A stretch of DNA of 15,538 nt from Amoebophrya sp. AT5.2 (taxonomy: Eukaryota > Sar > Dinophyceae > Syndiniales > Amoebophryaceae). The position numbers were made by a program, and so were the translations under genes. Location of the stretch: positions 1-15,538 of the forward strand of contig RXOD01005162.1 of assembly GCA_005223375.1 (NCBI GenBank), written 5' to 3'. Positions 1 to 15,538 of this stretch are shown piece after piece (position 1 is the stretch's first letter; the number at the start of each line of letters is the position of its first letter). The notes beneath the pieces were generated by a model. The model saw only the letters and a list, made by a program, of their open reading frames with translations. It did no database searches and was not told the DNA's origin.

Positions 1-1259
1 GCCGGAAGCTCCTGGTGCGCCGCGCACTTTGGTGATTTTGTAGCGCCATGCGAGGAGGTCGGCAGAAAGCCGAACGTCTTTCCCTGGTTTAGCGGCACCG
101 CGATGCCGGGACGGTTTCGGCCTTCTTCGAGCCGCATCTGAAAGTGGGCCCACGCTTTGAAGTAACAGTTGTCTGGGTCTGCCACCGCGACATCGCTGAG
201 GTGGAGCTGCGCGTTCGCGTAAAGCACGCAGCACAACACCGCCGCAGCGGTAGCGTCTGCTGATGCGAGGGAGTAGTCCGGTGTCCAGGAGGCGGGCGCG
301 CGGTCGGGGTGCGCAGGCGAGATTGCGTCAGTGTACACGGTTGGGATACCGTCGCATCCGCCGGTCATGACCGCGAAGTGCGTGCAGCCCGCGGTCGCGG
401 CGCAGTGGTTCGAGCAGGTCTGGGGGTGCCCGTCGAAAACTTCGTCTTGTTGCGGAACGGGCCAGCCACGGTGCATAACGTCGTCCCCCGCAATGCCACC
501 CGTACCATACCGGCTGCAGGGACCGATGGCCCCCGTCGCCTGCACTTTCCCGCTCCTTGCGGAAATCGTCAGCCTGGGATCCGCCACGCGGTCGAACAGG
601 GCGTGCCTGCTCCTGTCGCCGGGAAGAGCGTACACTGGCTGGCGGAAGCCAAGGTGCGTGGCGAACGCGAGGTAATTGTTCCTCCAGTCGACGCCCGTCG
701 ATAGCTCCAGGTGCACGGGCCCCGTGTGCAGGAAACAACAGAACCTGCTTACGTTGTTTTCGTCACCATCGCGCGGGCCACCAAAATTGCTGACGCCGTT
801 CTCGAAATTAAGTACCGGATCCGTGCTGTTGTAGATGAGACCGGATCCGGGGACTTGTCTTGCCACGGCGAAGACGGTACAGCCCTGGGTCCCCTGGAAG
901 CGGACGTTGGCGCACACGTAGGCACACTGCTCAGGGGTGCCGTCGAAGAGCTCGTCTTGCGGAAAGTCGTTAAAAATGTTACTGGTTGCGTCCTCGACCC
1001 TATGAGCTTCCATTCCGTCACATTGCCCGTAATGTATCCGCATCGAGTAGCCCGCCGGTCTGACGCCGTAATCAGGATTGTCGCCCCCGGGGTGCATTTG
1101 CTTGTAGTCTGGCCAGCTATGCACCCCGAGAAGCAGGAACAGGTCGTGGTCCGATGTGCAAACGTGTTGAAGAAGAGCGAAGAGCAGGAGCCGCGGACGA
1201 CCACGCACTCGACGTCGACCACGCAGAGAATCTTTTCTTGACATCTCAGTTGATGACAT
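1..1259 (-). CDS. Cysteine-rich secreted/membrane protein with tandem modules, 3' end outside window
   Basis: An uninterrupted reading frame of 419 codons runs from ATG at 1257-1259 to the left edge with no stop; a second in-frame ATG is at 1242-1244, and the first upstream in-frame stop is at 1326-1328. The N-terminus has an arginine-rich stretch (residues 8-23) followed by a hydrophobic run (LLLFALLQHVC, 24-34), which looks like a signal peptide or signal anchor. The body holds two copies of a module spaced 169 residues apart. Each has Gly-x-Cys about 25 residues upstream, then DE-(L/V)-FDG-x-P (102-109 and 272-279), C-x3-C-A (112/116 and 282/286), GCT-x-FAV (126-132 and 291-297), and later a Cys-Cys pair (174-175 and 343-344). 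The spacing recalls PAN/Apple-type adhesive domains, but I do not recognise the family with certainty. No intron is visible in this part. Function is unknown; an extracellular binding role is inference. Confidence 0.8.
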   Translation of the reverse strand, partial: MSSTEMSRKDSLRGRRRVRGRPRLLLFALLQHVCTSDHDLFLLLGVHSWPDYKQMHPGGDNPDYGVRPAGYSMRIHYGQCDGMEAHRVEDATSNIFNDFPQDELFDGTPEQCAYVCANVRFQGTQGCTVFAVARQVPGSGLIYNSTDPVLNFENGVSNFGGPRDGDENNVSRFCCFLHTGPVHLELSTGVDWRNNYLAFATHLGFRQPVYALPGDRSRHALFDRVADPRLTISARSGKVQATGAIGPCSRYGTGGIAGDDVMHRGWPVPQQDEVFDGHPQTCSNHCAATAGCTHFAVMTGGCDGIPTVYTDAISPAHPDRAPASWTPDYSLASADATAAAVLCCVLYANAQLHLSDVAVADPDNCYFKAWAHFQMRLEEGRNRPGIAVPLNQGKTFGFLPTSSHGATKSPKCAAHQELP

Positions 1260-1330
1260 GCCTTGTTCTGAAGGGCCTCCGAGAAGAAGCAAACTCTGAA
1301 AAAGAGTCAAAAACGACTGCAGCCTTCAGT
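1260..1330 (-). promoter_or_regulatory. Candidate 5' UTR with 3' splice-acceptor-like sites
   Basis: Upstream of the cysteine-rich gene's ATG, the minus strand has a pyrimidine run ending in AG (CTCTTTTTCAG, 1296-1306) and a second AG after CCCTTC (1268-1275). Dinoflagellate mRNAs receive a spliced leader by trans-splicing at such acceptors. The sequence would also fit an ordinary intron in the 5' UTR. No TATA box or other promoter motif is evident. Confidence 0.35.
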
Positions 1331-2309: not shown

Positions 2310-2448
2310 TTACGAGTTGTCGTTCAGCATGCAGGCCACGCTCTGTAGCACCCAGAGCGAGGGGTGGATTTCGGTGTGCAGGTTCGCTTCGAACACCAAC
2401 CCAACGCCCATCGCGTTCCGCCGCAGCTGCGTGATGTACACCGGGGTG
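2310..2448 (-). CDS. DNAH10: Dynein exon o: terminal exon and stop
   Basis: Encodes [19 protein letters not shown] and then [16 protein letters not shown] before TAA at 2310-2312. The ending ([17 protein letters not shown], near-terminal LN) matches the natural C-terminus of DNAH10-type chains, so the protein is not truncated here. Confidence 0.96.
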
Positions 2449-5400
2449 GGGAGTATGACGGGACCAAGTGGTAAGTGAGCATAGCTGGTAAGTGAGCGGT
2501 GATGGGTAGTTTCCCCTTGGCGATGGCGGATTTCCGTCAGCGATGGCGAGTGCCGATTAAGGCGCTCTGAAGTCTGCCCGGGTCGATGAAACACCCGGGC
2601 GGTTTCTAGAAATGGGCCCCATTCGATGGGGGTATGAAGGTGAAAGAATGTCGGGAGGTTGAGGGAAGCGGAAGCTACTGACTACAGTGGTAATAGTCCT
2701 GAAAGCAGGGAAAAAGCGGGCGCTTAGGGTTAGGGTGGTGATTGGTTGTCCTTGTCGGCTATAGGGTGCAGGAGTGCCAGGCCTGCCGACCACGAAAAGG
2801 CGGCTTTCCTCCAACTGCTGACCTCTCTGGGGACAACCGAAAAGGACCCTAGAGAGCCCCCAAAAAATTTCACTTACCACTTAGGGACTTACCACCTGGT
2901 CCCGCCATAGGGAGGCTGTTCCGCAGCTTCAGCCGGTTCGCCTCGACCGGTACTATCTTTACTAAAGGCATCAACTCGACCAGCACTTTTGGGAGCTGGC
3001 GGGCCAGGCACCCGTTCGCGAGGTCCCACCGCGCGCCCTCGATGTACATGCCCTCCACGTACGTCCCATCAAGCATCGGCTCCGTAACCTGCGTCGTCTC
3101 CGTGTACTTCGTGACCTCGGTATACATCGTGCACTTGTCGAGGGCCCACCCGCACCGCCGGCAAGTGGTCTGCACCAGCGACGAAAGCAACGACTCCGGG
3201 ATATGCAGCCCAGAAAGCCAAAACACCCACGGATCGCCCTCCTTGGCCCACCTAAAATTCGATTCATATTTCATTTTCATATCACAATTGATGTCTTGAT
3301 TGCCGAGAACATTTGAATTCATCGCCAACCGTGGCGGGGAGAATTGAATTGATTCTTGCTTTGGCTATTGTCGACATCTTCATGCTCCCTATGCCTATGA
3401 TCTAGAAGCGAAATATTTCTCTTCTCATAATTTGCGGGCACAGCCATATGCCCTGAGTGATCGACAGATAGTTTCCTCGGCGAAAAAATCGGACATCGAC
3501 CTCCTCGGAAAAAAAAATGTACGTGTCGTATTGGGTGAATCTTTTTGCGTAGTGGTCCATCCAGCTTCCCAGCGGCTTCTCCGTCTGCGGCGCCAGCTTG
3601 GCCCACATCGTGGGCAAGAAACCGTTGAAGAGCGAACTCCCCAGCTCATCCAGCTGCTGTGACATTCCGATCTCGCCCTTCAAGGCCCGCTTCAGGTCCT
3701 TCAGCGACGCATACATCCGGACGGAGAGCGCATTCATACGTTCCATCTCCTGCATCAGCACCACCTCGTTCGGTGTCGGCACGTCGTCCTGGTAGGTTGG
3801 TTTCACCGGTTTGTTTGTTTCTCTAGTTGTACCAGCGAGAGCGAATCTCGCCGCCTGTTGTTTAAGTACTATGATGGATCCATCGATCCAGCAGCACATC
3901 CAGTTGTTGTTCCAGAAAGAAATTATAGAAAAGATACCTTGACTAACTTGAGGTCGTCGTCGGGTATTCTTTTCAGGACGTCGTTCGCAATCTTCGCTAT
4001 GTACTCGTCTTTCGACATCCCTCCGTCCCCTCCGCCGGATCCGGTTTCCATGGATAAAAGACCAAACCAGATCTCCTTCGCGGCGTTAGTAAAATAGTTG
4101 ATCTCAGCGTTCGCGTGGAGCCCGAAAACACCTTCCAAGTGTTGGGTATATAACGGTAATGGTTCAAAAATTTTAATAGAATACTGTTCTGAAATACATC
4201 GAATCGTCTTGGCCTATGAGGCGAAAAAGCGTGGGCGAAAACGCAAGGTGGCGCAAGCGGCCACATGATGTGGTGGGAATCTTACACGCACGGGGCCTGG
4301 CCTCCCGACAGGTTTCGGATGATACTTCTACCAACCTGGAACCGGTCCAAACCTTAACCTATCCCAAACCAAAGTAATGTGAATACCGTATCGCCATTAA
4401 TTCGGTTCCGAAACAGTAAGAGTAACAGCGACTTAACAGCCACTTTTCTGAGGAAGTGAGCGACTGGTCCAAAAACCTTGACACCAAATCAAAAACCTTG
4501 AATCTACTACGCTATGAGTATGAAATTTAATACTCAATTTAATGTACTACCTGGGCTCTGTCCGATCGGCAGCGCCAGAATGTGTGACATGTAGTCGGCG
4601 TGGTCGCCCTCCATCGGACAGGTGTATTCGAAGCCGTCCTTCGAGAAGAAGAACGGCACGTTCTCGTCGAACAAAAAGTCCCCCATGTAGTCCTCCAGGT
4701 ACGTGTTCAGAACCCGTCTGTCGTAGTTGTCGGTGACGCGGCCTCCGTACATGGCCTCGCCGATCAGGTACCGCAGCGTGTCCCACGGAATCACCGCGCC
4801 CTGGTCGAAGGATTTCTGCAGGTACAGCACCGACAGCTTGTTCGAGATCTTTAAAGGAGAGGAAAAAAATGAGCTAGAAGCGGGTGGAAAAATTAATATG
4901 CTTCGGTTTTGTCACTGTGATGACAAGAGGACCATGTCAAATTGATTCCCTGCCATGGGGAGTGGGAGATCCGTGGAGCCCGCCGAATCGTCGACATCGA
5001 CGAGCCCACAACCCCGGGGCGGAGGCGCACTTATGGGCTTCCAAGAGACCATGCCCATCTTGCGAGAGACGAGAGCCTGACCCACAAGACTAGAGCGCGG
5101 CTAGACCCGACATCGGCTAGACGAGTGCCCCCAGACTACAACAAGCCAACAGGACCGGGCACTACTTACAGCCTCCAAGACCGAGCAATGTCATAGGGAG
5201 GTAGCGCAATGGGAGTCCGGGTCGATAGGTGAGGGTCTGGCTCGCGTGGTCCTAGAAGGTGAAGATCTACTTCGAATTCCAAACCCATGGATCTGATAGC
5301 TCATTTTTGCATCGCTCGGTAAGATTTTCAAATCTGACTCGTTGAAGTCATAGGCGACGTTCCAACCGATCTTCCCGAACTTACGCCGGTCCTGCACGAT

Positions 5401-8400
5401 GGCGTGAAAGAACGCCAACACGTACAGCAGCGGCTTGCAGGCCCAGTGGGGGCAGAGCGTCAGGTCCTCGTCGGACATCTTTGTGTAGGTCTGCTTCAGG
5501 TTCAGCTTGAGGCCGTCTGGGGGTTCGGTCACCACTTTCAGAGACTTCTGCAGGATGCCCATCGGGAAGTCGTCGATGGGCATGGTGGTCAGCCAGAGGC
5601 GAAAGTCCTTGTGCGGCTTCAGGATACCTTTGGCGATGAGGGGGAGGGTTTCAATTTTCGGAGATTTGATCTTTTGAGTCCCCGCTACCTCTGCCCAAGG
5701 AAATGCATGTCGTCCTTCGCGCCTCTTCGCTGCGGAAGCATAGCTTGCGTAGCTCCGCGAATAGAAGATGCGTGTAAAAAAACAGCTGGAGCATCGACTG
5801 CATAGCTACACGGCTAGTCGAAATCGGATACGATAAGTAGCCAAAAACCCCAGCACCTTCCAGGATTTTCTCCAGCGTTTTCAGCCACGACACCAGCAGG
5901 TGGCAGTTCTGCAGGATGACCCACTGGCCCCTCTGCCACCCGGATTCGATGTTCGCGGCCGCGACCGGGCCCATCCCCTGCCCGAGACTTACGAAGCGGA
6001 ACTTCGGCCCCACGAAGCCCATGCCCTCCCCCAATTTCTGGAGGTCGCTCTGGGGGTCCGCCCCGGGCGAGAGCACGAACACGATCGGGGAGCGCTCCGA
6101 GGACAGCGCGTAGATCTTCTCGAAGGCCAGCGACGGGGGCTGCACGAAGTAGTCGTACAGCCGCCACATGATGAAGTTCTTCGTTGCGTTGATGATGCGG
6201 TCCGGGCGGAAGCACCGGATGATCAGCATCTGCTTGAAGGGGTCCATTAGAGGTTGAAAAAATCCAGGTCGTGCTCCTTGGGGTTTAGGCTTAGTCGTGT
6301 CGGATCCCCTCTGTCATCCTTCGATCCTGACTTTGAGCTCAGCAGGGTCCAGCAACACCCGGCTGAGAAAGGTCCAACAGAGCCGACCGACTGGGCCCTC
6401 TGCATCGATTTAAACCGACGGCAGCACCATCGGGCACCGCAGCCTTCTGGTCGTGGGGGCATACTAACGCTTACGCTAGAGGAGAACCTACTGCCGATCC
6501 TAGACCCCTACTCTCGTCTGAAGAAGGGGAGGCTGTCAGACCCGGTCAGAAAAACTACCCCTGGACCTGGACCTGAATTTTTTCAACCCGTAAGTCCAGC
6601 TCCGAGAAGCCGCAGGGCAGAATCTCCGTTTCCGGCGTCTCCAGGTCGTACCAGGCGCGCCACACGTCCCCCTCCTTGATGATGTCGTCGCACAGCGTTT
6701 TCATGCTCGCGTCCAGCGTCGAGAGAAGCTCCAGGTCCTTCCACGCCCCGTCGGAAATCCAAGTGTGCGGGTTCTGCTTCTGTGGCTTTTCCAGCGATGG
6801 GTTGCCCTTCATGTAGAAGTCGAACTCTTTTTGGATCAACTCGTCCTCGCCCTTCATGATCATCGTGGTCATCTTGAAGGAGAACAGCAGTTTGTGCTTC
6901 TCGAAGATGCCCATGCAGGTGTAGTCGTACATCAGCTGCGTGATTTTTTCCCGCAAATTTTTCAGTCGGTTGTCCAGAATCCGGTCCGGCTTCGCCTCCG
7001 CGATCGCGTTCGAGAACACCTCCAGGTAGCTTCCCAACGAGTACTCGTACATGTTGGAGATGGCCACCAGCCCGCTCATGGTGAAATACAAAATAGAGCC
7101 CCGCTTCGCCACTTTCGTGTACGACGACCGGGCCTTGTCGATCTCCACCGACGTGACGGCCGCGGCGGACAAGGACTCGCCGATCTCAATCGACTTCGTC
7201 TTCGCCGTGTTCAGCGTGTTGATCAGTTCCTCGTTGTCCAAGATGGACCCCTTCGAGTTCGCCAGCTCGCGAAGCAGCGTGCGGTGTGGAGAGGAGGGGG
7301 ACTGCATATTGTCCGGGAAAATCGGGATGGTTTCCGGGAAAAGTTCGATGCCAGAAACCATAGAGGACTTGCAAGGAGGTCTACGACGGTACAAGCCGAG
7401 CTGATACTGAGATACCCAGCTCCAGACGCAGCTTTTCCAACCATCGTTTGGGAGAAAATAGGGGGACCTATTTGTTCCTGACGGTGTATAGGTCCCGGCC
7501 GGAATGGAAAGGACCCCGGGACATACTTACTTACTATATTTCCCAGGGGTGTTTATTAGGTGCCAAAGCGAGCTATGGGAGGCGGCATAGTATGCAGGAA
7601 AGCTTCTGCACGGGGTCGCTGAAATCAGGGCCCCTGCCCGATCGGCAGCTCCTCGATCGACCCCGACAGCTAGCCGTCGGAGACTAGGAGCGCATCGCCG
7701 CCCGCGCTGCACGATCATAGCTTCCGGGAATTAGAAGTACTGTGGGAGCATCGTTAAGGGACAATATGGCTCTTTGTCTTCACCCTATGTCTTCGAGCGT
7801 CTTCAAGATCTGGCGGTTGTCGCTCATCTGCTGCACCAAGGCGGAGCGCTGCGCCTCCAGGTCCGGGCGCTCGAAGCCGACGACCACGTTCAGGAGCTGC
7901 GCCGCGAGTCCGTCCAGTGTGATCACGCAGTTGACGATGGACACCTTCCCCATCACCTCCGGGGTGTACGAGGGGTTCGAAAGCTTGGTGCACAGGCTCA
8001 GCTGGAAGGTGGGCGAGACCTCCAGTTCACTGTCCCCGAGCTGCAGCATCTTCTGCCCGGACACGATGGTGTACGCCTTCTCCAAAACCGGGTCGATCAT
8101 TGGGTCCAGCTCCTCGTCCAGGTTCTCGAACAGAAACGGCTTGCCGTACGTGATCGCGAGCTCCAGAAACTTGATGTAATCATCATTAAACGTCTTCACC
8201 GTCAACCCGTTCTTCGCCTCCTTCTTCTTGATCCAGTTCACCGCCTGCATCTGCGGATCCACACACAGCGGGTACCGCGCAGACCGAGTCACGAGAATAC
8301 CTGTTTTTATTTATGCAAAAACCAGGGTGGGAAAAAATTTGCGCGAGTATATCTATGTGCGCTGCATTATACTAGAACTAGATCAACACAATTCTAACGG

Positions 8401-11400
8401 ACAGCTAAACTAATCGGGTAAGCAACCTGCCATCGGACCTATCGCTCCCAAAGCACCAGTTTCAATAAAATCAACCATTTTGTATCGAGAGTTCGTCTGC
8501 CGGCAGCCCGAAGCCGTTCCAGGCTGCGGTTTCCACCTCTGACGTCAATAAATCCTCCAGCCGGTACTTTTCCGAGATGGGTATTTTGTTGCTCTGGATG
8601 AACTGGTACCAGTCCACGTACACCATCTGGCTGCGGAACTCGTAGTTGAAGGGTCCCGCGTACGACACGAACGCCGCGTTGGCGAGGCAGTCGCCCACCA
8701 GCCGCGTGCGGATCTCCCCCTGCACCTCCAGGTCCGCGGTCCAGCGAACCCGTTCCCCCGCCAGTCCCGTGATCAGCTGGCTCGCGGCGCCGAGCCGCCG
8801 CTGCATCAAATCCGCCTCGTCTTTCAGCTCTTTCAGCTTCGCAGACTGCTCCTGCTCGTCGGCCTGGAGCTTGGCCAAGCTGGAACTCAAAGCCGCCAGC
8901 TCCTCGTTGATGGCCTCCAGGTTGGCCTCGGCCTCTTCTTTTTGATTCTGCAGCTCTTTCACGAGCTTCTTCTTCGGCTCGACGGTCTTCGCCACGTCGT
9001 AGTACTTCGTCATGGCGAGAGTCTGTGGGATTCAGCCATTGAGATTGTGATTGGGATAATGAAGCACTGCAAAATGAGACAGCATGGCGGAGTTCTGTCA
9101 GTTTGGATTGCCGTGTTGGTGCCCATCTGCTGTTGGTCGTGCTCCTGGCGGTCTGTCTCTATTATATCAGGCGGATGATCAGATCTGTCGTCTCCGTCTG
9201 CCCTTCGGAGCTACACTTCGTAGCTACAAGGAACCCGGACCCACCAGGCAGACGACTTCTGCTTCTCAAACGATTTAAATACAAATACAAAATAGGCTTC
9301 TATACCCACTGCAGCAGCCCGTAGCCTGCTTTCGATATGGACTTCATTTTCGCGCCGTCGTTTTCCACGAGGGTCTCTTTGTCCTTGTTCATTTCTGTTC
9401 GGATGAGCACGATCTGCCGCTCCTTCATGTCGTCTTTACGGTACTCCTGCAGCGAGCGCAGGAAGCCACCATCCGACATCATCGCTTTCGCTCCCGCCCA
9501 CCCCTGCGTGTGGTCTTCCTTCCCGAGGGGCCTCAGGATCATGATGCACTTGCACACGGCCATCACGGCGGGGGGTGGCGTGGAAAACGCCTTCACCTCC
9601 GTGATGTCCTTCTTGTCCAGGTTCTCGAGCGCCTCCGCGGCCGCGGCGAGGGCCGGCAGCGCCATCTGCAGCGCGGCGTCGGCGTCGGCCTTTTCGCGCA
9701 CGATCACGACGTTGTCCTTCTCGATTTTTTCGGCCGCGGCGTTCGCCTCCTCCTGCCGCTTCGCCGCGACCTCCGTCTTCTGGTTGATGTCTTCTATCAG
9801 CGCGGTGACGTTCTTCGCGTTCTCGTCGACGACCACCACTTTCTTCGACAGTTCCGCGCTCATCACCGTGACTTGGTCCGCAGCCTCGATCAGCTTCTCC
9901 AGACCCCCACCCAGCCGCTTTTTCAGCGTGTCCGTGTTGCCGCGGTTCAACTCCAGAAACTCGGCGTAGTTCGCCAAATAGTCCAAGTAGTTCTTCGGCG
10001 TGGCGAAGTTCCGTCGCTTGAATTTCGCCTCGAACTCGGGCGAGTAGCTGGTCGTCACGGACGTGTGCACGTAGGAGATGGTCTTCGCGATCATCTCCCG
10101 GTTCTCCGCCGGCAACTCGACGGGACCCAGGAAGAACTCGGCCACGGCCAGCAGCGCCTCCTCGGGCCAGGAGAAGAACCAGTCGATGGTGCAGCAGGAG
10201 ACCATCCCCGGGAAGTTGCGGCACCGCGTGCGCAGTTGGCTGCCCGCGGGCGACATGGCGAGCACCATGTGCAGGTTGTCCTTCAGCATGTTGACCACCA
10301 GTCCCCACATCCCGGTCTCGGGGATGCCCTGCTTCTTCGCCTCCGGCCGCGCCACTTGGAGTAGTGGCTCCTTCTCGTCGTCGGCCATCAGCGCCGGCAC
10401 CATCCCTACCGTGAGGATGTTGTTGATGTACTCCAGGAACCCTTCCTGCACCACATCCTGGTCGCGGAACAGGAATATGCCGGCACCAGCGATGGTAAGC
10501 GCCTTCTTCATCGCTGCGCGATGTACAGGAGGGGTGATCAAGCCTGGTCGTCCTATCACCATGCATTCCCCTGGGCCTGGCTTTCCCCGCCTACTTACCT
10601 CTTTCATCTCCTTCCCAGCAGCTATCATCAGCGAGGGACCCGCCGCCTCCCCCCCCACATCCATGGGGCCCATTTTTAAAAACCGCCCCAGACCCCTTTG
10701 CGCCCCAGACACACAACTTCAGAGCGCCTTAATCGGCACTCGCCATCGCTAAGGGCCCCCGCCATCGCCAGGTGGGCACCCTCCCATCACCTCCTAGCAC
10801 TTATCAATACCATAGCTAGTATGGCAAAAATCGGTCTACCATCGCGGGTCTCGCTTCTTAAGAAAGCTGTGCGGCTTCTTGATTGCCGCGGTGTAGAGCG
10901 CCTTCAGGTCGTCGCGGATGTTGCTGTCGCCGTACCCTCTCGCCAACTGGATCTCGTACAGTGTGTAGCAGGCCGTGAAGGTCCCGAGCCTGGTGAGGCT
11001 CTGTTTGCCGCTGCCGCCGATCCCGATCAGGAGCGCGTGCCCGCGCTGAATCCTCAAAATCCGGTGGAGCCTTGTTAGGTGCGCCATCGCGTCCACGAAC
11101 AACACTAGGTTCATGATCTTGTTCTCGAGGTTGTAGTTTTCCAGCACGGCGGACATGGTCTTCTTCACGTTGTCCCACGTGTCCAGGTCCGCGTAGGACC
11201 GCGGCATCAGCCACGGCGTCTCGGACTTCATCATGTCGTTCAGCACGTCGGTGAAGTCCCCGAATACCATCGGCTCCGCCATCACCTTCTCCGCGCAGCC
11301 GCCGTAGTTGCTCCCGATGATCGCCTTCATCTGGTTCGCCACGAAGTCCTTGTCCTTGTCGTCGTTTAACCTGTCCTCGTACACCCTCAAAAATTCGTTG

Positions 11401-14400
11401 CGGAACATGCGCACCACCTGCGCGTCGGTCGCGATCCGCTCCGGCTCCGCGGCTTGGAATAAATTCTGGAACACCCGGGAGAGGTCGCGGAGGGAAAAAA
11501 TGTAGTGGAACTTGGACGGGGTCGGGGGCAGCGACGCAATCACGTTGTTGTGCAGCTCCATGGCACACTGCGGCAGCTTCAGGGTAGCGTCCTTTGCGGC
11601 GTCGGCGAAAGCCCCGCCCTGGAAGCGGAACGCCAAAATGCTCGCGTAGATCCGCTCCACGGTGGCGACCGTGGGCGCCAGCACGCCGACAATCGCGTAC
11701 AGCGAGGCCACGCGCGGGTCGATGTGGTTGCGCCCGCTGCCCGGCGGCTGCATCGCGGAGATGAAGTCACAGTCCAGGATCATCATGCGCTCCAGCTCTA
11801 ACCGGTGGTAGAAGTAGCCACGCTCCACCAGAAACTTCAGCAGCGCCAGCGGCTGCTGCGTCCCGTAGGTGTCGATTTTCGGCATCGCCAGATCGTCGAT
11901 GAAGATCCGCAGCCGCTTCCCCGCTTCCGGGCCGTACTGCCGCCCCGTTCTTTTCGTCACGTTGTCCTCCACGGTCCTTTGGAAGTCCATGGACGTGGTC
12001 CGGCTCGAAAACGAAATGTTCAGGATGATGCTCTCGTCGCTGCTCCAGCCCGTCTCCAGGCAGGCCTGCGCGGTCACGGACTTCGCCGTACCCGACTCCC
12101 CCACAAACAAAGTGGGCTGGTTCACGGACATAAACTTTTTTATCAGCCAGCTGTACCGGGTGGTGTCCAGGGTGGGGATCAAAATCTGGTTGAAATTGAT
12201 GTCGTTCGCCGGGTTCCAATCCTCAATCAAGTCGTCCCGTTTACAACTTGAAAATACCCAGCGATCGCCGACTGGTGCAGCGAAGCAGGTCTCTTTTTAG
12301 CAATCTATTTCTATACAGCCGTGGAGCATCAGCATCACGCTCCTGCACGTCGTGAGTCACTACGGCTGCGAAACTGGCGTCGGAGAAACCACATACGCAA
12401 AGAGCAGTGGAGCTAGTGGCGATTCCTTGCTTTGCGGCTGCGTACTTCTCCTCGAGGACATCATCGGTCTCAATTCCCCCCCGATCGATTGCACCCATCC
12501 GACTCGCAGCTGCTACTGCCAGTCTGATGGGGACGAGAGCAGCTACCGCTACAGCTAGCCAGCGTTAAGTAATCACTACGCCTGGACCGCCCGGATCGCT
12601 GAGTTTTTCCATCGCCCTTAACCCATGGCACCCACCTGCCAGAGGACTCGTAGTCGAAGTAGTTGTCGTACAAGGGACTCGACGGCATCATTTTCGCAGA
12701 CCGCTTCCGAATGAACTCGTCGAACTTACGCCGCCCCTCCTCGTCGACGGCAGCGCCGATGGACCACACTGTCAATGCGCATTGGAAGCATTATTTTCAT
12801 TCCTTCTACGTAGTGGTAGTACTAACTTAGTAGAGGCCAATAGTACTCCTACTCGTCTACAGCATTGTGAGCATATAGCAACTTCAAAACAACAGAAGTA
12901 CCCAGACAGAGCACGTAGATGTGTTCGATCAGGTCCAGGGATATTTCCGTGCCCGACGTGGTCATCATCGTATCCCTCGGCCCGCCTTCTTCTCCTTCCT
13001 TTACCTGCGAATCGTCCACGTCCGCTATCAGCGAATCGAACAGCCGGGAAAACTGGTACATCGCGTCCGTCCCGACGGTGCTCCTGGGAATCTGCATCCC
13101 CACCGGCTCGCCGATGCTGTCCCCCACCCTTCCCTCGTACACGTACAGAACCAGCTGTGGGTAGAACTTGTCGAACAACTCCAGCAGTTGCTCCCTCATC
13201 GGCTCGTGCTTCCCGCACTTCAACCGCACCCAGCGGTCGTAGTACGGCCCGCACCCCAGATTCCTGTCGTCAACATACACCATACCGCAGCGCGAAACCG
13301 TCGCGGGCGATGCGTACTGCAGGTCGTATACCTCAAACAGCATCGCGCAATGGCCCTCCAACCGAATGCGCTCGCCGTTCGGTAACGTTAAAAGCTTGTT
13401 GTCGTCTATGGCGGGCCCAGCTGGCAAGCGCCAGTCAGTGACCAAAGAAGTTGTGTGCTAACAGAAATATCGAGGCCTTTTTTTCTGGAGGAGCACTCCG
13501 CGAGCGTTTGGGTTTGCTGGAGGAGGACTAGCTGAAGAGGAAGGCGCTGCAACGCAGTATCTTCTACTTCCTTTGGGAGCCTACTGCTAAAAATGCAGAG
13601 TAGGCCTTCTAGGCGATCGATGCCCTTGGTGCCGTACGACCCCGGCCCCGCTCCCTCCTAGTGCCACGATGGCGCATCTCGGGACCAGGTCACGAAACAT
13701 TGCCAGCTGGTCCCTTCATATCGTCCATCACGGAGTTCATGTTTTCGATCCACAGCGCGTCCACATCTCCGTCGTACATGATGTACCGCCGCTCTGGTTT
13801 TTTCGGGTCGTAGTTGCTGTTCATGTCGCGGAAGATTTTCGACAGCAGCCCGTCCGTCCAGTCTCTTGTTGCGGGGTTCAGCACGCCGTATAGTTCGTCC
13901 GTCGTCACCGCTTTCGGGTTGATGGGAAAGATTTTCGTCGGCAGCGCGAGTGCTTTTTTCTGCGCGCCCGCCAGAGTGTCGACGCACACCGATTTGCCGC
14001 CGCAGGTCGGGCCGACCACCATTGTGGAGTGCCGTGTTAGCATCGTTTCGTACAGCTGCATCACTTTGTCCACCTGCAAGTTGAAGGTTTCGTCGTACTT
14101 GCTTTGCGCCGGCTTGTTGTGGTTTTCTGTGAGCACGTCGATGATGCCCTGCTTCAGCTCTGGGTTCCCCACCCGCGGGCAGTCCAGCCCCGGGAACAAG
14201 TCCGACAGCAACCCCATGAACAGCGGCACGTCCTGCTTCACGAACTTGGGGATGTTCATGTCGCGCAGCGCGCGCATCAGCACCACGTCCTCGCCCAGCT
14301 CCGGACTTCCCCGCTTCATGTCGCCCGCCATCACGAGCACGGACTTGAGCGCGCGCAGCTTGAAGTCGTAGTGGTACTGCTTCGACAGCTGCCCCGCGGA

Positions 14401-15364
14401 CAGCGCGTACAGCACCGTCATCTTCTTCGCGAGCACTTTCGACAACAAAAAGCCCTCGGACATCAGCATGTTGTCGCAGATCATCATCAGATCCGGCACG
14501 ATCATGGTCACCGGGCGGAACAACGCCTTCAAATTGTCCGGCAGCTCGGAGCGGCCCGCATACCCCGGGTTCATCGTGATGAAGTACCCGATCGTCACCT
14601 TCAAAGCCACCTCGCGGTTCAGCATCTCGATCGACTTGGCGCCGGCCGCGAGTCCGAGCTGGATCGTCTTGATCTGCGCCGCAACCACGGAGAGCACCTC
14701 GGGGTTGATCCGGTTGAACTCGTCGAAGCAGCCCCAGAACCCGGTTTCGCTCAACCCAGAAAAAATGACGCCCATCGCGCGGTAGTCCAGCCCGTCGCCG
14801 CAGTTCGTCACCACGCACGGGATCGCCAGCGCCTTCGCCAGGTCTTTTGTCGTTTCCGTCTTCCCCGTGCCCGCCGGCCCCGCGGGCGCGCCGCCCATGT
14901 AGAAGGTCAGCGCCGTGGTCAGCGTCATCACGCAGCGGTCCGTCAACGGCGTGATCACGAGCCGCCCGTTCAGCCCCTGGTACTCGTAGGTGTACTTCAG
15001 CGTGCCCGTGCACTGCTTGATCTGCACGTCGTCGATCCGCCGGTCCCAGTAGAACCGGAGCTGCGACTCCCAGTCGAAGTCGTCCCGGCTCAGCACCGAG
15101 TCGCGCACGAACCGGTCCACAATGTCCCGCGCGTGCACGTCGAGGATGATCAAACTGTTCACTTTTTTGCGCTGCTGCTTGTTGATGTCGGACGACACTA
15201 GGAGCACTAAATCCGTGACCTGCGTGTTCTGGTTCGCCAGCTCAGCCTTCATCCCGTTCTTGTCCCCCTCCGCGACCTTTCGAAACGCGTCCTCCACGAG
15301 CCAGGTCCACCAGATCTGCGTCCCCAGGATCGCCACCATCCCGTTGTAGGCCTGCAGCCACTCC
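2310..15364 (-). CDS. DNAH10: Axonemal inner-arm dynein heavy chain, DNAH10-like (I1/f beta), motor half; 5' end outside window
   Basis: This is the AAA+ motor and C-terminus of a ciliary dynein heavy chain, the ATPase that slides axonemal doublet microtubules. Fifteen exons join in frame to about 2,836 residues plus a TAA stop at 2310-2312. Visible landmarks by joined-residue number are: AAA1 P-loop GPAGTGKT (162-169) and Walker B CFDEFNR (212-218); AAA2 P-loop GPTCGGKS (451-458); AAA3 P-loop GESGTAKS (812-819); AAA4 P-loop GIGGSGKQS (1171-1179); stalk coiled coils around 1410-1510 and 1625-1695 flanking the microtubule-binding region; AAA5-6; and a C-terminus with [13 protein letters not shown]. 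The C-terminal segment and AAA1-2 match DNAH10 better than outer-arm or DNAH1/2/5 types as I remember them, so orthology is likely but unproven. A human heavy chain has about 4,500 residues, so tail and linker exons are missing on the right. Where a direct repeat flanks an intron, one copy was assigned to the upstream exon by convention. Confidence 0.95.
2454..2909 (-). mobile_element. Introner-like element no.1 (intron n/o), 456 bp
   Basis: Terminal inverted repeats: 2454-2476 and the complement of 2887-2909 match at 21 of 23 positions; both start TATG and contain GGGACCA. The direct repeat GGGAG (plus strand) sits at 2449-2453 and 2910-2914, exact. Removing the element and one copy gives NSLPTPVY, the conserved sequence. 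No register within the repeat gives GT-AG ends. It contains no long ORF. Near each end TGGTAAGT is repeated twice, facing inward. Its core is shared with the element at 10476-10860. Confidence 0.92.
2539..2573 (-). repeat. Dispersed intron repeat core, copy 1
   Basis: These 35 bases are identical, in reverse complement, to 10716-10750 in intron d/e. Weaker similarity continues on both sides, including GGGGCCCATTT and AAACCGCCC on one side and CCGCCATCGCCA and CCCATCACC on the other. The identity joins two introns over 8 kb apart. Confidence 0.92.
2910..3251 (-). CDS. DNAH10: Dynein exon n: C-terminal region
   Basis: Encodes [54 protein letters not shown] and [25 protein letters not shown] and the Y-x-E-GA-x-WD block are family signatures. 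The exon ends at an exact CTCCC target duplication. Confidence 0.95.
3252..3522 (-). other. GT-AG intron m/n, 271 bp
   Basis: Starts GTACAT and ends ATTTTAG; phase 2. Joining gives [15 protein letters not shown], with the same length as the family in this stretch. Confidence 0.9.
3523..3788 (-). CDS. DNAH10: Dynein exon m: C-terminal region
   Basis: Encodes [49 protein letters not shown] and [16 protein letters not shown]. The VVLMQE and LKGEIGMS blocks match the dynein C-terminal domain. The ACCAG acceptor at 3789 is chosen because it is in phase with the previous exon; AGs further upstream are out of phase. Confidence 0.9.
3789..3937 (-). other. GT-AG intron l/m, 149 bp
   Basis: Starts GTATCT and ends CTACCAG; phase 0. 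Joining gives [14 protein letters not shown]. The region is poorly conserved in the family, so the acceptor is chosen by phase. Confidence 0.78.
3938..4131 (-). CDS. DNAH10: Dynein exon l: C-terminal region
   Basis: Encodes [19 protein letters not shown] and a glycine-rich loop (GSGGGDGG), then [18 protein letters not shown]. FGLHxNAEI is a family signature. It is bounded by a GGAAG acceptor and a GTATCT donor. Confidence 0.92.
4132..4550 (-). other. GT-AG intron k/l, 419 bp, with short repeats
   Basis: Starts GTAGTA and ends TTGGAAG; phase 1. Joining gives QSPGVFGLH. Inside are an 11-base tandem repeat TAACAGCGACT/TAACAGCCACT (4423-4444), the direct repeat CAAAAACCTTGA (4470-4481, 4490-4501) and a small hairpin GAGTAT/ATACTC (4516-4535). 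No gene is seen in it. Confidence 0.88.
4551..4845 (-). CDS. DNAH10: Dynein exon k: C-terminal region
   Basis: Encodes [56 protein letters not shown] and [11 protein letters not shown], the conserved GEVMYGGR-type block. The 5' edge is set by homology and the AGATC repeat copy. The 3' edge is a GTAGTA donor. Confidence 0.93.
4851..5322 (-). mobile_element. Introner-like element no.2 (intron j/k), 472 bp
   Basis: Ends are TTA...TAA. The left 26 bases (4851-4876) pair with the complement of 5297-5322; the outer TTA and an inner 12-base AAAAATGAGCTA are exact, with divergence between them. The flanking direct repeat is GATCT at 4846-4850 and GATTT at 5323-5327 (one mismatch). Removing the element plus one copy gives ESDLKISNKL in frame. 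No GT donor is available near the junction. No transposase-like ORF is seen. Confidence 0.8.
5323..5627 (-). CDS. DNAH10: Dynein exon j: AAA6 end and start of C-terminal region
   Basis: Encodes [71 protein letters not shown] and LKI. These are among the most conserved segments of axonemal heavy chains. The acceptor is CAAAG. The 3' edge lies in the AAATC/AGATC direct repeat. Confidence 0.95.
5628..5856 (-). other. GT-AG intron i/j, 229 bp
   Basis: Starts GTGCTG and ends GCCAAAG; phase 1. Joining gives [15 protein letters not shown], with the same residue count as the family in this stretch. Confidence 0.88.
5857..6241 (-). CDS. DNAH10: Dynein exon i: AAA6
   Basis: Encodes [16 protein letters not shown], the [13 protein letters not shown] segment, [24 protein letters not shown] and [20 protein letters not shown]. 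All are hallmarks of AAA6. The exon ends LEKILE plus one base at a GTGCTG donor. Confidence 0.95.
6247..6593 (-). mobile_element. Introner-like element no.3 (intron h/i), 347 bp
   Basis: Terminal inverted repeats of 24 bases, 6247-6270 and the complement of 6570-6593, match at 21 positions; they share GGTTGAAAAAAT and CAGGTC. The exact direct repeat GTCCA (plus strand) lies at 6242-6246 and 6594-6598. Excision with one copy gives GFSELDPFKQML, as expected for the family. Neither GT nor AG can be placed at the ends in any register of the repeat. No long ORF with similarity. Confidence 0.93.
6594..7279 (-). CDS. DNAH10: Dynein exon h: AAA5-AAA6 region
   Basis: Begins [19 protein letters not shown] and includes [25 protein letters not shown], the [12 protein letters not shown] segment, [12 protein letters not shown] and VWRAWYDL. 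It ends GFSELD at an exact TGGAC target duplication. The frame runs on into the intron at the 3' side for about a dozen codons without family similarity. Confidence 0.94.
7280..7787 (-). mobile_element. Probable introner-like element no.4 (intron g/h), 508 bp
   Basis: Homology (LED-x-LLREL) fixes the junction to within two bases and there is no GT-AG. Near the ends an exact 10-base inverted repeat CATATTGTCC is present (7305-7314 and complement of 7759-7768), with weaker pairing outward (GGTG near both termini). I see no clear target duplication, so this is an older or decayed copy, or another kind of non-canonical intron. Confidence 0.6.
7788..8300 (-). CDS. DNAH10: Dynein exon g: AAA5
   Basis: Encodes [44 protein letters not shown] and [16 protein letters not shown], all conserved in AAA5 of axonemal heavy chains. 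It ends QILKTLED plus one base. The acceptor is AACAG. The 3' edge is set by homology (LED-x-LLREL in the family), because no GT donor is present. Confidence 0.92.
8301..8475 (-). other. GT-AG intron f/g, 175 bp
   Basis: Starts GTTGAT and ends AAAAACAG; phase 1. Joining gives SIQNGILVTR. It is A/T-rich near the acceptor. Confidence 0.9.
8476..9022 (-). CDS. DNAH10: Dynein exon f: stalk CC2 and start of AAA5
   Basis: Begins [19 protein letters not shown], the end of the microtubule-binding domain. It continues through the returning stalk helix CC2 ([16 protein letters not shown] to LMQRRLGAA), [11 protein letters not shown], the [16 protein letters not shown] segment and [11 protein letters not shown]. 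All are standard landmarks around the stalk-AAA5 boundary. The exon is bounded by a CACAG acceptor and a GTTGAT donor. Confidence 0.94.
9023..9305 (-). other. GT-AG intron e/f, 283 bp, with internal hairpin
   Basis: Starts GTATAG and ends CCCACAG; phase 0, lying in the microtubule-binding domain. An imperfect palindrome at 9187-9256 (GTCGTC...CTGCC against GGCAGACGAC, with an inner AGCTAC/GTAGCT stem) lies in its middle. Confidence 0.88.
9306..10470 (-). CDS. DNAH10: Dynein exon e: rest of AAA4, stalk CC1, most of the microtubule-binding domain
   Basis: Encodes [17 protein letters not shown] (AAA4 Walker B and after), CRNFPGMV with TIDWFFSWP, then [11 protein letters not shown] leading into the stalk. 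Stalk helix CC1 covers roughly joined residues 1410-1510, rich in Ala, Glu and Lys. The microtubule-binding region follows from about 1515 and contains [13 protein letters not shown]. The exon ends in frame at LLQW with a GT donor. The frame stays open upstream of 10470 into the intron, but that stretch has no family similarity. Confidence 0.94.
10476..10860 (-). mobile_element. Introner-like element no.5 (intron d/e), 385 bp, inside AAA4 Walker B
   Basis: The left end (10476-10497) begins TATGCCGGCACCAG, matching the TATG..GGGACCAG type of element no.1. It pairs with the complement of 10837-10860, best over ACC(A/C)GCGATGGTA. The direct repeat is AGGAA at 10471-10475 and AGAAA at 10861-10865 (one mismatch); either copy gives the same protein, KKPHSFLFRD. 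Its core matches element no.1 in the opposite orientation. It has an open frame continuous with exon e but no family similarity. Confidence 0.85.
10716..10750 (+). repeat. Dispersed intron repeat core, copy 2
   Basis: Reverse-complement match of 2539-2573. It lies inside element no.5, whereas copy 1 lies inside element no.1, so the two family members sit in opposite orientations within the same transcription unit. Confidence 0.92.
10861..12240 (-). CDS. DNAH10: Dynein exon d: AAA3 and N-terminal part of AAA4
   Basis: Contains AAA3 P-loop GESGTAKS (12078-12101), [10 protein letters not shown], the Walker B region IFIDDLAMP, the [10 protein letters not shown] and [20 protein letters not shown] segments, MNLVLF, and the AAA4 P-loop GIGGSGKQS (10998-11024). 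It closes with SRGYG-like ARGYGDSN and [16 protein letters not shown]. The last codons match the conserved run into the AAA4 Walker B (family pattern KPTVFLF), which places the junction at the TTTCT/TTCCT direct repeat. It does not lie at the nearby AAGAAG repeat. Confidence 0.93.
12244..12617 (-). mobile_element. Probable introner-like element no.6 (intron c/d), 374 bp
   Basis: Inverted repeats near the ends: 12244-12266 and the complement of 12594-12617, with CAGCGATC exact and an A-rich stretch outside it. Both sides share only TTA (12241-12243 and 12618-12620) as a direct repeat in phase with the coding sequence, so the edges are less certain than in the other elements. No in-frame GT-AG pair joins the exons. 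Confidence 0.7.
12618..12768 (-). CDS. DNAH10: Dynein exon c: AAA2-AAA3 connector
   Basis: A short exon encoding [19 protein letters not shown] through [16 protein letters not shown]. The SIGAA, FDEF, YDYFFD-like and WVPW motifs are typical of the segment just before AAA3. The acceptor is CAG (TTGACAG). The 3' edge is uncertain by a few bases because the next intron has no GT; I use the TAA shared by both sides. Confidence 0.85.
12769..12901 (-). other. GT-AG intron b/c, 133 bp
   Basis: Starts GTACTT and ends TTGACAG on the minus strand; phase 1. Joining gives VLCLVWSIGAA. No terminal inverted repeats. Confidence 0.9.
12902..13401 (-). CDS. DNAH10: Dynein exon b: rest of AAA2
   Basis: Starts [14 protein letters not shown] and includes the strongly conserved [16 protein letters not shown] segment, followed by the more variable AAA2-AAA3 region ending EHIYVLCL. 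Its 5' edge is set by the GACGA repeat shared with the previous exon. Its 3' edge is a GT donor after a single G of the next codon. Confidence 0.93.
13407..13720 (-). mobile_element. Introner-like element no.7 (intron a/b), 314 bp
   Basis: Terminal inverted repeats of 21 bases, 13407-13427 and the complement of 13700-13720, match at 18 positions. Both start TATG and share CCAGCTGGCAA. The exact direct repeat TCGTC (plus strand) is at 13402-13406 and 13721-13725. Excision with one copy gives SVMDDNKLL, the conserved AAA2 sequence. It sits directly after the AAA2 Walker B block. No long ORF. Confidence 0.93.
13721..15364 (-). CDS. DNAH10: Dynein exon a: end of linker, AAA1 and most of AAA2
   Basis: Begins at EWLQAYNG just inside an introner-like intron. 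It contains the conserved TQIWWTW and LDVHARD segments, the AAA1 P-loop (14857-14880), AAA1 Walker B (14710-14730), the [10 protein letters not shown] sensor segment, the AAA2 P-loop (13990-14013) and AAA2 Walker B MYDGDVD (13759-13779). AAA1, the main hydrolytic site, looks intact. The exon ends in NSVMDD at a GACGA target duplication, two bases into a codon. In AAA2 the P-loop has Cys where a Gly is common (GPTCGGKS). Confidence 0.95.
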
Positions 15365-15538
15365 TATGGCGAGCTTTGCGACTTAATCTATCTACAACTA
15401 CTTAAAAAAATCAGCTGCTGCAGGGGAGCGCGTGGTTCGCGAAGTCGGAAAAAGCGCTGCACGGCCAAGATGGAGGCTCGATGGCCGACGAACAGGGGCT
15501 GGAAGGATGTCCCGAGAGGTCTAGACGTCTGGGGGTAC
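15365..15538 (-). mobile_element. Introner-like element no.8, cut by window end
   Basis: The coding frame of exon a closes at a TAG across 15364-15366, and dynein similarity begins at EWLQAYN. The intron edge starts TATGGCGAGC on the plus strand, the same start as elements no.1 and no.7 (TATGGCGGG). The presumed target repeat is ACTCC at 15360-15364; its partner and the other inverted repeat lie outside the window. Confidence 0.6.

Follow-up and report, generated by a model that had tools for sequence, protein, structure and literature searches.

The closest described counterparts of the introns considered here are the introners of the Amoebophrya strains A25 and A120, where more than 60% of introns are non-canonical, with RNA-seq support (Farhat et al. 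2021, PMC7789003). Of the non-canonical introns, 11% in A25 and 30% in A120 have both inverted repeats of 8-20 nt and direct repeats of 3-5 nt, and the inverted-repeat motifs begin with TTA and two purines in A25 and with TAT in A120 (PMC7789003). Section 16 of that work reports a family-specific inverted-repeat motif as undetectable and rules out a general mobilisation mediated by transposases. Elsewhere, introns are said to be mainly canonical in the K. veneficum strain and canonical in AT5 (PMC12005148). Here we analyse contig RXOD01005162.1 over its whole length of 15,538 nucleotides (the window), which carries a dynein heavy chain gene with seven introns that appear to lack GT-AG ends. 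These are probably non-autonomous DNA transposons bounded by terminal inverted repeats (TIRs), that is, introners resembling miniature inverted-repeat transposable elements (MITEs), removed together with one copy of a target duplication and without GT-AG ends.

Results

From 15363 to 2310, the minus strand of the window encodes an axonemal inner-arm dynein heavy chain, of which the 3′ part is present; among solved structures (PDB chains) it comes closest to DNAH10 and to related inner-arm chains, IDAf-alpha included.

2310..15363, minus strand: dynein coding region of DNAH10/IDAf-alpha type, split into 15 exon pieces by 14 complete introns (J1 to J14), from the PDB, protein and tblastn exon map

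The joined translation is 91% identical to Amoebophrya sp. A120 and 88% to A25 over the whole length, the next protein reaching 68%. This single protein suggests an Amoebophrya host near A120 and A25 yet distinct from both. An earlier reading of the window, made from its letters only (hereafter the sequence-only reading), had pointed to similar introns in Amoebophrya; the host is indeed a relative, and introners are described in both strains by Farhat et al. (2021). Dynein exons are open and 86-98% identical to A120 (tblastn), except for one 78% stretch where the alignment enters intron J1. The A120 protein served as a ruler, A25 being compared as well, and all splice pairs of correct length were enumerated for each intron; for this genome, junctions are placed from DNA and protein alignment alone.

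In seven of the 14 complete introns, the registers that rebuild the protein are never GT-AG. Their ranges, which include both direct repeats where present, are as follows.

About 13402-13725: intron J1, element 13407..13720, ends TATGGCGGGCCCAGCTGGCAA / TTGCCAGCTGGTCCCTTCATA, TCGTC at 13402-13406 and 13721-13725
12236-12626: intron J3, element 12241..12621, TTA-type ends, CCCGT at 12236-12240 and CCCAT at 12622-12626
10471-10865: intron J4, element 10476..10860, AGGAA at 10471-10475 and AGAAA at 10861-10865
7280..7789: intron J7, repeated core about 7413-7704 (family F3), inner repeat CATATTGTCC, own ends eroded
6242-6598: intron J8, element 6247..6593, TTAGAGGTTGAAAAAATCCAGGT ... ACCTGAATTTTTTCAACCCGTAA, GTCCA at 6242-6246 and 6594-6598 (family F2)
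4846-5327: intron J10, element 4851..5322, TTA-type ends, GATCT at 4846-4850 and GATTT at 5323-5327
2449-2914: intron J14, element 2454..2909, inverted repeats TATGACGGGACCAAGTGGTAAGT / ACTTACCACCTGGTCCCGCCATA, GGGAG at 2449-2453 and 2910-2914 (family F1)

At 2466-2478 and 2870-2882, J14 can pair a second time through an inner copy of GGTAAGTGA, so that GGTAAG recurs near its end.

Boundary direct repeats flank six of the seven introns. Three are exact (GGGAG, GTCCA and TCGTC) and three have one mismatch (GATCT/GATTT, AGGAA/AGAAA and, around J3, CCCGT/CCCAT). Removal of the element with one repeat copy leaves the dynein sequence whole in the A120 alignment, as the sequence-only reading had claimed; over the 53 residues compared at J1 there is no mismatch to A120. 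The same reading held that the seven introns have no GT-AG ends compatible with the frame. This stands in so far as none rebuilds the A120 protein, but each of the seven does offer in-frame, stop-free GT-AG pairs, between 2 and 22 of them. The best-scoring of these insert 4 to 47 residues (the option at J1 adds 5) or, at J8, lose one residue and alter the conserved SELDPFKQ.

The other seven introns have exact GT-AG ends and leave the protein length unchanged in the A120 alignment. All are taken from the splice-pair listing, and each is without another copy in the 50.7-Mb assembly searched (2759 contigs, the window being contig C1366); as one query, the seven returned self-matches only.

12769-12901, minus strand: GT-AG intron J2
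9023-9305, minus strand: GT-AG intron J5
8301-8475, minus strand: GT-AG intron J6
5628-5856, minus strand: GT-AG intron J9
4132-4550, minus strand: GT-AG intron J11
3789-3937, minus strand: GT-AG intron J12
3252-3522, minus strand: GT-AG intron J13

Terminal inverted-repeat scores separate the two classes with zero overlap, 10-25 for the non-GT-AG introns and 6-9 for the GT-AG introns (1 of 3432 rank orders). Compared with shuffled sequences, p is 0.003 for J1, J3, J8 and J14, 0.013 for J4, 0.027 for J7 and 0.060 for J10; six introns are thus individually below 0.03 and J10 alone is non-significant. Since the scores of J4, J7 and J10 (10-12) are unremarkable singly, the inverted-repeat case rests on the whole set. 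As a control, ends of different introns were paired, giving a mean of 7.8 (maximum 18) for the non-GT-AG class and 7.6 (maximum 14) for the GT-AG class; the value of 18 is reached within the non-GT-AG seven, whose ends are related. When the first 60 nt are folded as RNA against the last 60, the result exceeds the shuffle mean in six of the seven element introns, and also in five of the seven GT-AG introns; it exceeds the shuffle maximum in J8, J10 and J14 only (15 shuffles each), and we do not rely upon it. The non-GT-AG introns are also longer, with a mean of 413 nt (element plus one repeat) versus 237 nt. Most structural claims of the sequence-only reading are therefore borne out: the five introns between named 5-base direct repeats, all five present as stated; inverted repeats at or near the ends of all seven, each outscoring every GT-AG intron even if J10 falls short singly; the plain GT-AG ends of the others, without such repeats; and the greater length of the element class, then put at about 408 against 237 bp.

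Four of the non-GT-AG introns belong to repeat families, namely J14, J4, J8 and, through its core, J7; J1 has the ends of one family, and J3 and J10 are unique. J14 and J8 each matched at least 39 other contigs and J4 at least 37. The J14 and J4 lists overlap and form one superfamily, and the J4 core is the J14 core in opposite orientation within the same gene. The ends of J1 are J14-like (F1-like) by eye (TATGAAGGGACCAG), and its core has one weak relative in the genome. The J7 core was found at 25 other genome places; seven of the eight relatives fetched have a third terminus near TATGCAGAGGAAATTTGTCC and a perfect 5-bp duplicate, the ends of this family having been picked with the duplicate in the selection rule. 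The ends of J7 relatives are clean and TATG-type, those of J7 itself longer and eroded; J7 is perhaps an old insertion or a composite one.

Exact matches to the terminal motifs number 157 in the genome for the J8 type and 303 for the J14 type, and reversed controls gave 0. Sharp-ended, full-length copies amount to 44 for J8 and 29 for J14, each including the window copy; the J14 set omits loci without locatable ends (35 core groups in an earlier set, before duplicate removal). The possibility raised with the sequence-only reading, that each intron might prove unique in the genome, does not describe most of the elements, which have relatives, although it does describe J3 and J10.

Chance, assembly error or a pseudogene as explanations are refuted by the family evidence: their likelihood is negligible in view of the fully separated inverted-repeat scores, the hundreds of family termini versus 0 in controls and the open dynein exons. 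One observation in their favour is an excess of J14-type (F1) termini near contig starts: among the first 100 listed, 18 lie within 650 bases of a start where about 3.5 are expected, so the elements do seem to break the assembly.

To define the insertions, copy ends were set without reference to duplicates, by BLAST of terminal pieces for J8 and by terminal match only for J14. Among the 44 J8 copies, the 5-bp duplicates are perfect in 29, with one mismatch in 11, two in 2 and three in 2. Similarly, 27 of the 29 J14 copies have duplicates with at most one mismatch (19 perfect, 8 with one), the remaining 2 having four or five. The identity of J8 duplicates, measured on 26 copies, is 0.91 at length 5 versus 0.23-0.33 for any other length between 2 and 9; with shuffled partners it is 0.29 (maximum 0.44 of 200); the J14 figure in this length test is biased by end choice. 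When the flanks are joined minus 5 nt, a strict-rule coding frame is found in 29 of 44 J8 copies and 20 of 29 J14 copies. Joining minus 6 nt yields 0 and 1 such frames, and minus 7 nt, 2 and 1. Nine of ten joined-flank translations tested have a Pfam match, and in seven of them the match clearly spans the join (RPB2, NUDIX, kinesin, topoisomerase, IMPDH, ion channel and mitochondrial carrier). This shows that the elements inserted into exons. As any insertion that makes a duplicate restores the frame in this way, the joined flanks alone do not prove exact splicing.

Without DNA transposition it would be hard to account for elements that have defined termini, duplicate a fixed 5 bp and sit within exons. 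The families, termini and duplicates of other copies support the proposal, made from the window alone, of introners derived from DNA transposons with target duplications. Removal could in principle occur at the DNA level during some stage of the life cycle, like that of the internal eliminated sequences of ciliates, although we consider this highly improbable: dual nuclei are not known in dinoflagellates. On paper, precisely removed TIR elements with short direct repeats look alike, and a MITE infestation accommodated by genome editing has been reported for Blepharisma; yet the relatives of this host carry such elements as RNA-supported introns (PMC7789003).

GT-AG ends are not generated by exact excision in any register, neither in the 19 J8 nor in the 14 J14 copies with perfect duplicates and called orientation (0/33). 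Alternatively, these could be introners of the usual GT-AG sort whose splicing keeps some additional codons, as in Aureococcus, where 12 bp are kept (PMC9860276). At J14-type ends, whichever way they are read, 25 of 29 copies have an inward-pointing GGTAAG, so that a donor-like motif is on offer in both orientations. We looked for GT-AG pairs inside the elements, within 80 nt of each end. An in-frame, stop-free pair exists in 17 of 20 J14 copies (shuffled mean 13.2, range 9-17), and in only 11 of 29 J8 copies versus a shuffled mean of 18.6 (range 14-24), the other 18 having none. If up to 30 nt of exon loss is allowed, the counts become 20/20 for J14 (shuffled 17.9) and 24/29 for J8 (shuffled 26.2). 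However, no donor-acceptor pair inside the element is common to more than 3 of 20 J14 or 3 of 29 J8 copies, and the best pairs in the dynein gene, as described above, add residues or change conserved ones. We thus find retained codons an unlikely explanation. On this evidence, non-canonical removal appears well supported for the J8 family and likely for the J14 family.

The two families differ in orientation with respect to the coding strand, counted with the window's own copies. J8 copies lie 29:0 (15/44 undecided; binomial p 3.7e-9) and J14 copies 11:9 (9/29 undecided; p 0.82), a difference with a Fisher p of 8e-5; the J7 family is at 1:3 with 3/7 undecided. A smaller earlier copy set, in which J14 ends were picked with the duplicate in the rule and the false-end rows L067 and L095 were dropped, gave 18:0 for J8 and 12:9 for J14. 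If coding exons accept J8 elements in a single orientation, their removal would be directional; for this family some directional signal must also matter. The J8 termini differ slightly, with TTAAGGG at the sense 5′ end and CCTCTAA at the sense 3′ end. CCTAAAC is present at the sense 3′ end in 28 of 44 copies versus 10 of 44 at the opposite end, and the branch-like motif yTnAy is no different between the ends (16 and 17 of 44).

This asymmetry bears on two versions of the proposed non-canonical removal. In the first, a modified spliceosome would work independently of U1, a 3′ branch point and pairing of the termini replacing U1. The 29:0 lock demands direction, CCTAAAC is commoner at the sense 3′ end, and in A25 and A120 nearly all spliceosome proteins were found and U1 was not (PMC7789003). 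Against it, J14 and J7 copies lie both ways, the 3′ pyrimidine run of J8 has a near-equal counterpart at its other end, and at the J14 ends no more than 4 and 1 of 29 contain an 8-base pyrimidine run; the near-equal counts of the general yTnAy motif may also speak against it. Our searches for U1 and U2 small nuclear RNAs found nothing, but control genomes were equally silent, hence they are uninformative. We hold this version to be possible, without expecting it.

In the second version, the hairpin would be excised and the exons joined by an RtcB-type ligase, by analogy with animal SOS splicing. SOS splicing acts on inverted repeats. The orientation neutrality of J14 and the absence of a splice dinucleotide rule would fit such cutting and religation, and in SOS splicing transposons are cut from mRNA and the pieces ligated by RTCB (PMC13247085). 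The orientation lock of J8 does not fit, and we regard this version as rather doubtful.

Three further features were recorded apart from these questions. The window ends within another intron:

15364-15538, minus strand: incomplete intron at the window edge, gene-side end ...GCTCGCCATA, resembling J14-type (F1) ends by eye

An open frame of 441 residues (3-1325, minus strand) appears by eye to be cysteine-rich with two repeats, and had no match in Pfam. Viral contigs scanned for the three termini gave 0, 1 and 0 matches; we rejected the lone match as chance, as it has no convincing partner terminus and falls within an open reading frame, on a contig of 42% G+C whose genes look phage-like by eye.

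Discussion

We suppose that the elements, mobilised by a transposase that would act in trans, entered dynein exons with a 5-bp duplication of the target. In the pre-mRNA, pairing of the two termini may draw the exon ends close to each other. The element would then be removed with one 5-nt duplicate, the join falling somewhere inside the duplicate, and it is because this duplicate leaves with the element that the original protein would be restored without GT-AG ends. For the TAT-type families (J14 and J7), recognition of paired, near-symmetric termini seems most likely. The J8 family would use an extra directional signal, candidates for which are the slight differences between its termini and the CCTAAAC near the sense 3′ end.

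Several observations weigh against this explanation. A mechanism using only the stem leaves the 29:0 lock of J8 unexplained. The termini of a given J8 copy pair no better than those of random partners (p 0.15-0.36), and although J14 termini do pair better with their own partners (p 0.0015-0.01), the choice of ends favoured pairing. In-element GT-AG pairs are present in most J14 copies, above the shuffled mean, which gives GT-AG use with retained codons some plausibility in that family. No clear flanking direct repeat was seen at J7. Finally, the genome searches found no relative of J3 or of J10, which are thus assigned by structure alone; a pattern uniting the ends of these two introns matched 3 genome places including J10 itself, with no large family bearing that end.

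The contrast between families raises the tentative idea, which we would not yet favour, that one genome harbours two mechanistically different kinds of transposon-made introns, the TAT-type being removed either way round and the TTA-type J8 directionally. On this idea the TAT-type, with its near-palindromic ends, would be removed whichever the orientation, a paired stem being read there rather than a directional 5′/3′ splice code. If true, comparing TAT- and TTA-type elements would separate stem-guided excision from the splicing of non-GT-AG introns. The contrast of 29:0 versus 11:9 makes the removal mechanism testable by family in existing A120 and A25 RNA-seq data. In the main text of PMC7789003, orientation terms concern gene orientation only, and among the titles and abstract openings surveyed, none reports introner orientation by family in Amoebophrya.

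The elements resemble non-autonomous TIR transposons of the MITE type: they are short, TIR-bounded, with a fixed 5-bp duplication and many sharp-ended copies. Unlike MITEs in general, they are introns inside coding exons. They also echo the introners of other eukaryotes in a 2022 survey, where transposition with target-site duplication and TIRs creates introns, and for which the methods allow copies in opposite orientations (PMC9860276). The examples given there carry or co-opt splice sites; here exact excision yields GT-AG in none of the 33 copies tested. Nonconventional introns of euglenids share variable borders, pairing of the ends, frequent direct repeats and a suspected MITE origin (PMC4770533). 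They nevertheless belong to an unrelated lineage, for which a CAG/CTG motif is reported to pair at fixed positions near the ends (PMC4770533). As in SOS splicing, transposons would be removed from mRNA to give a functional message, but SOS splicing is described in animals and as a defence (PMC13247085).

The closest likeness remains with the introners of A25 and A120, which also lack GT-AG ends, carry terminal inverted repeats and direct repeats of 3-5 nt and are mixed with GT-AG introns in one gene (PMC7789003); they exist in many copies, as do J14, J4, J8 and the J7 core here. In contrast with those strains, TAT and TTA end types coexist in this genome and even in one gene. Moreover, each family described here is bounded by defined termini and its duplicate is constantly 5 bp long; direct repeats in A25 and A120 vary in length and position (PMC7789003). 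For this genome, the families argue otherwise than section 16 of that work, which found no family-specific repeat and ruled out a general transposase mobilisation. The intron class itself is already known from A25 and A120, and our analysis adds to it family-resolved termini, a fixed 5-bp duplication and an orientation contrast between families.

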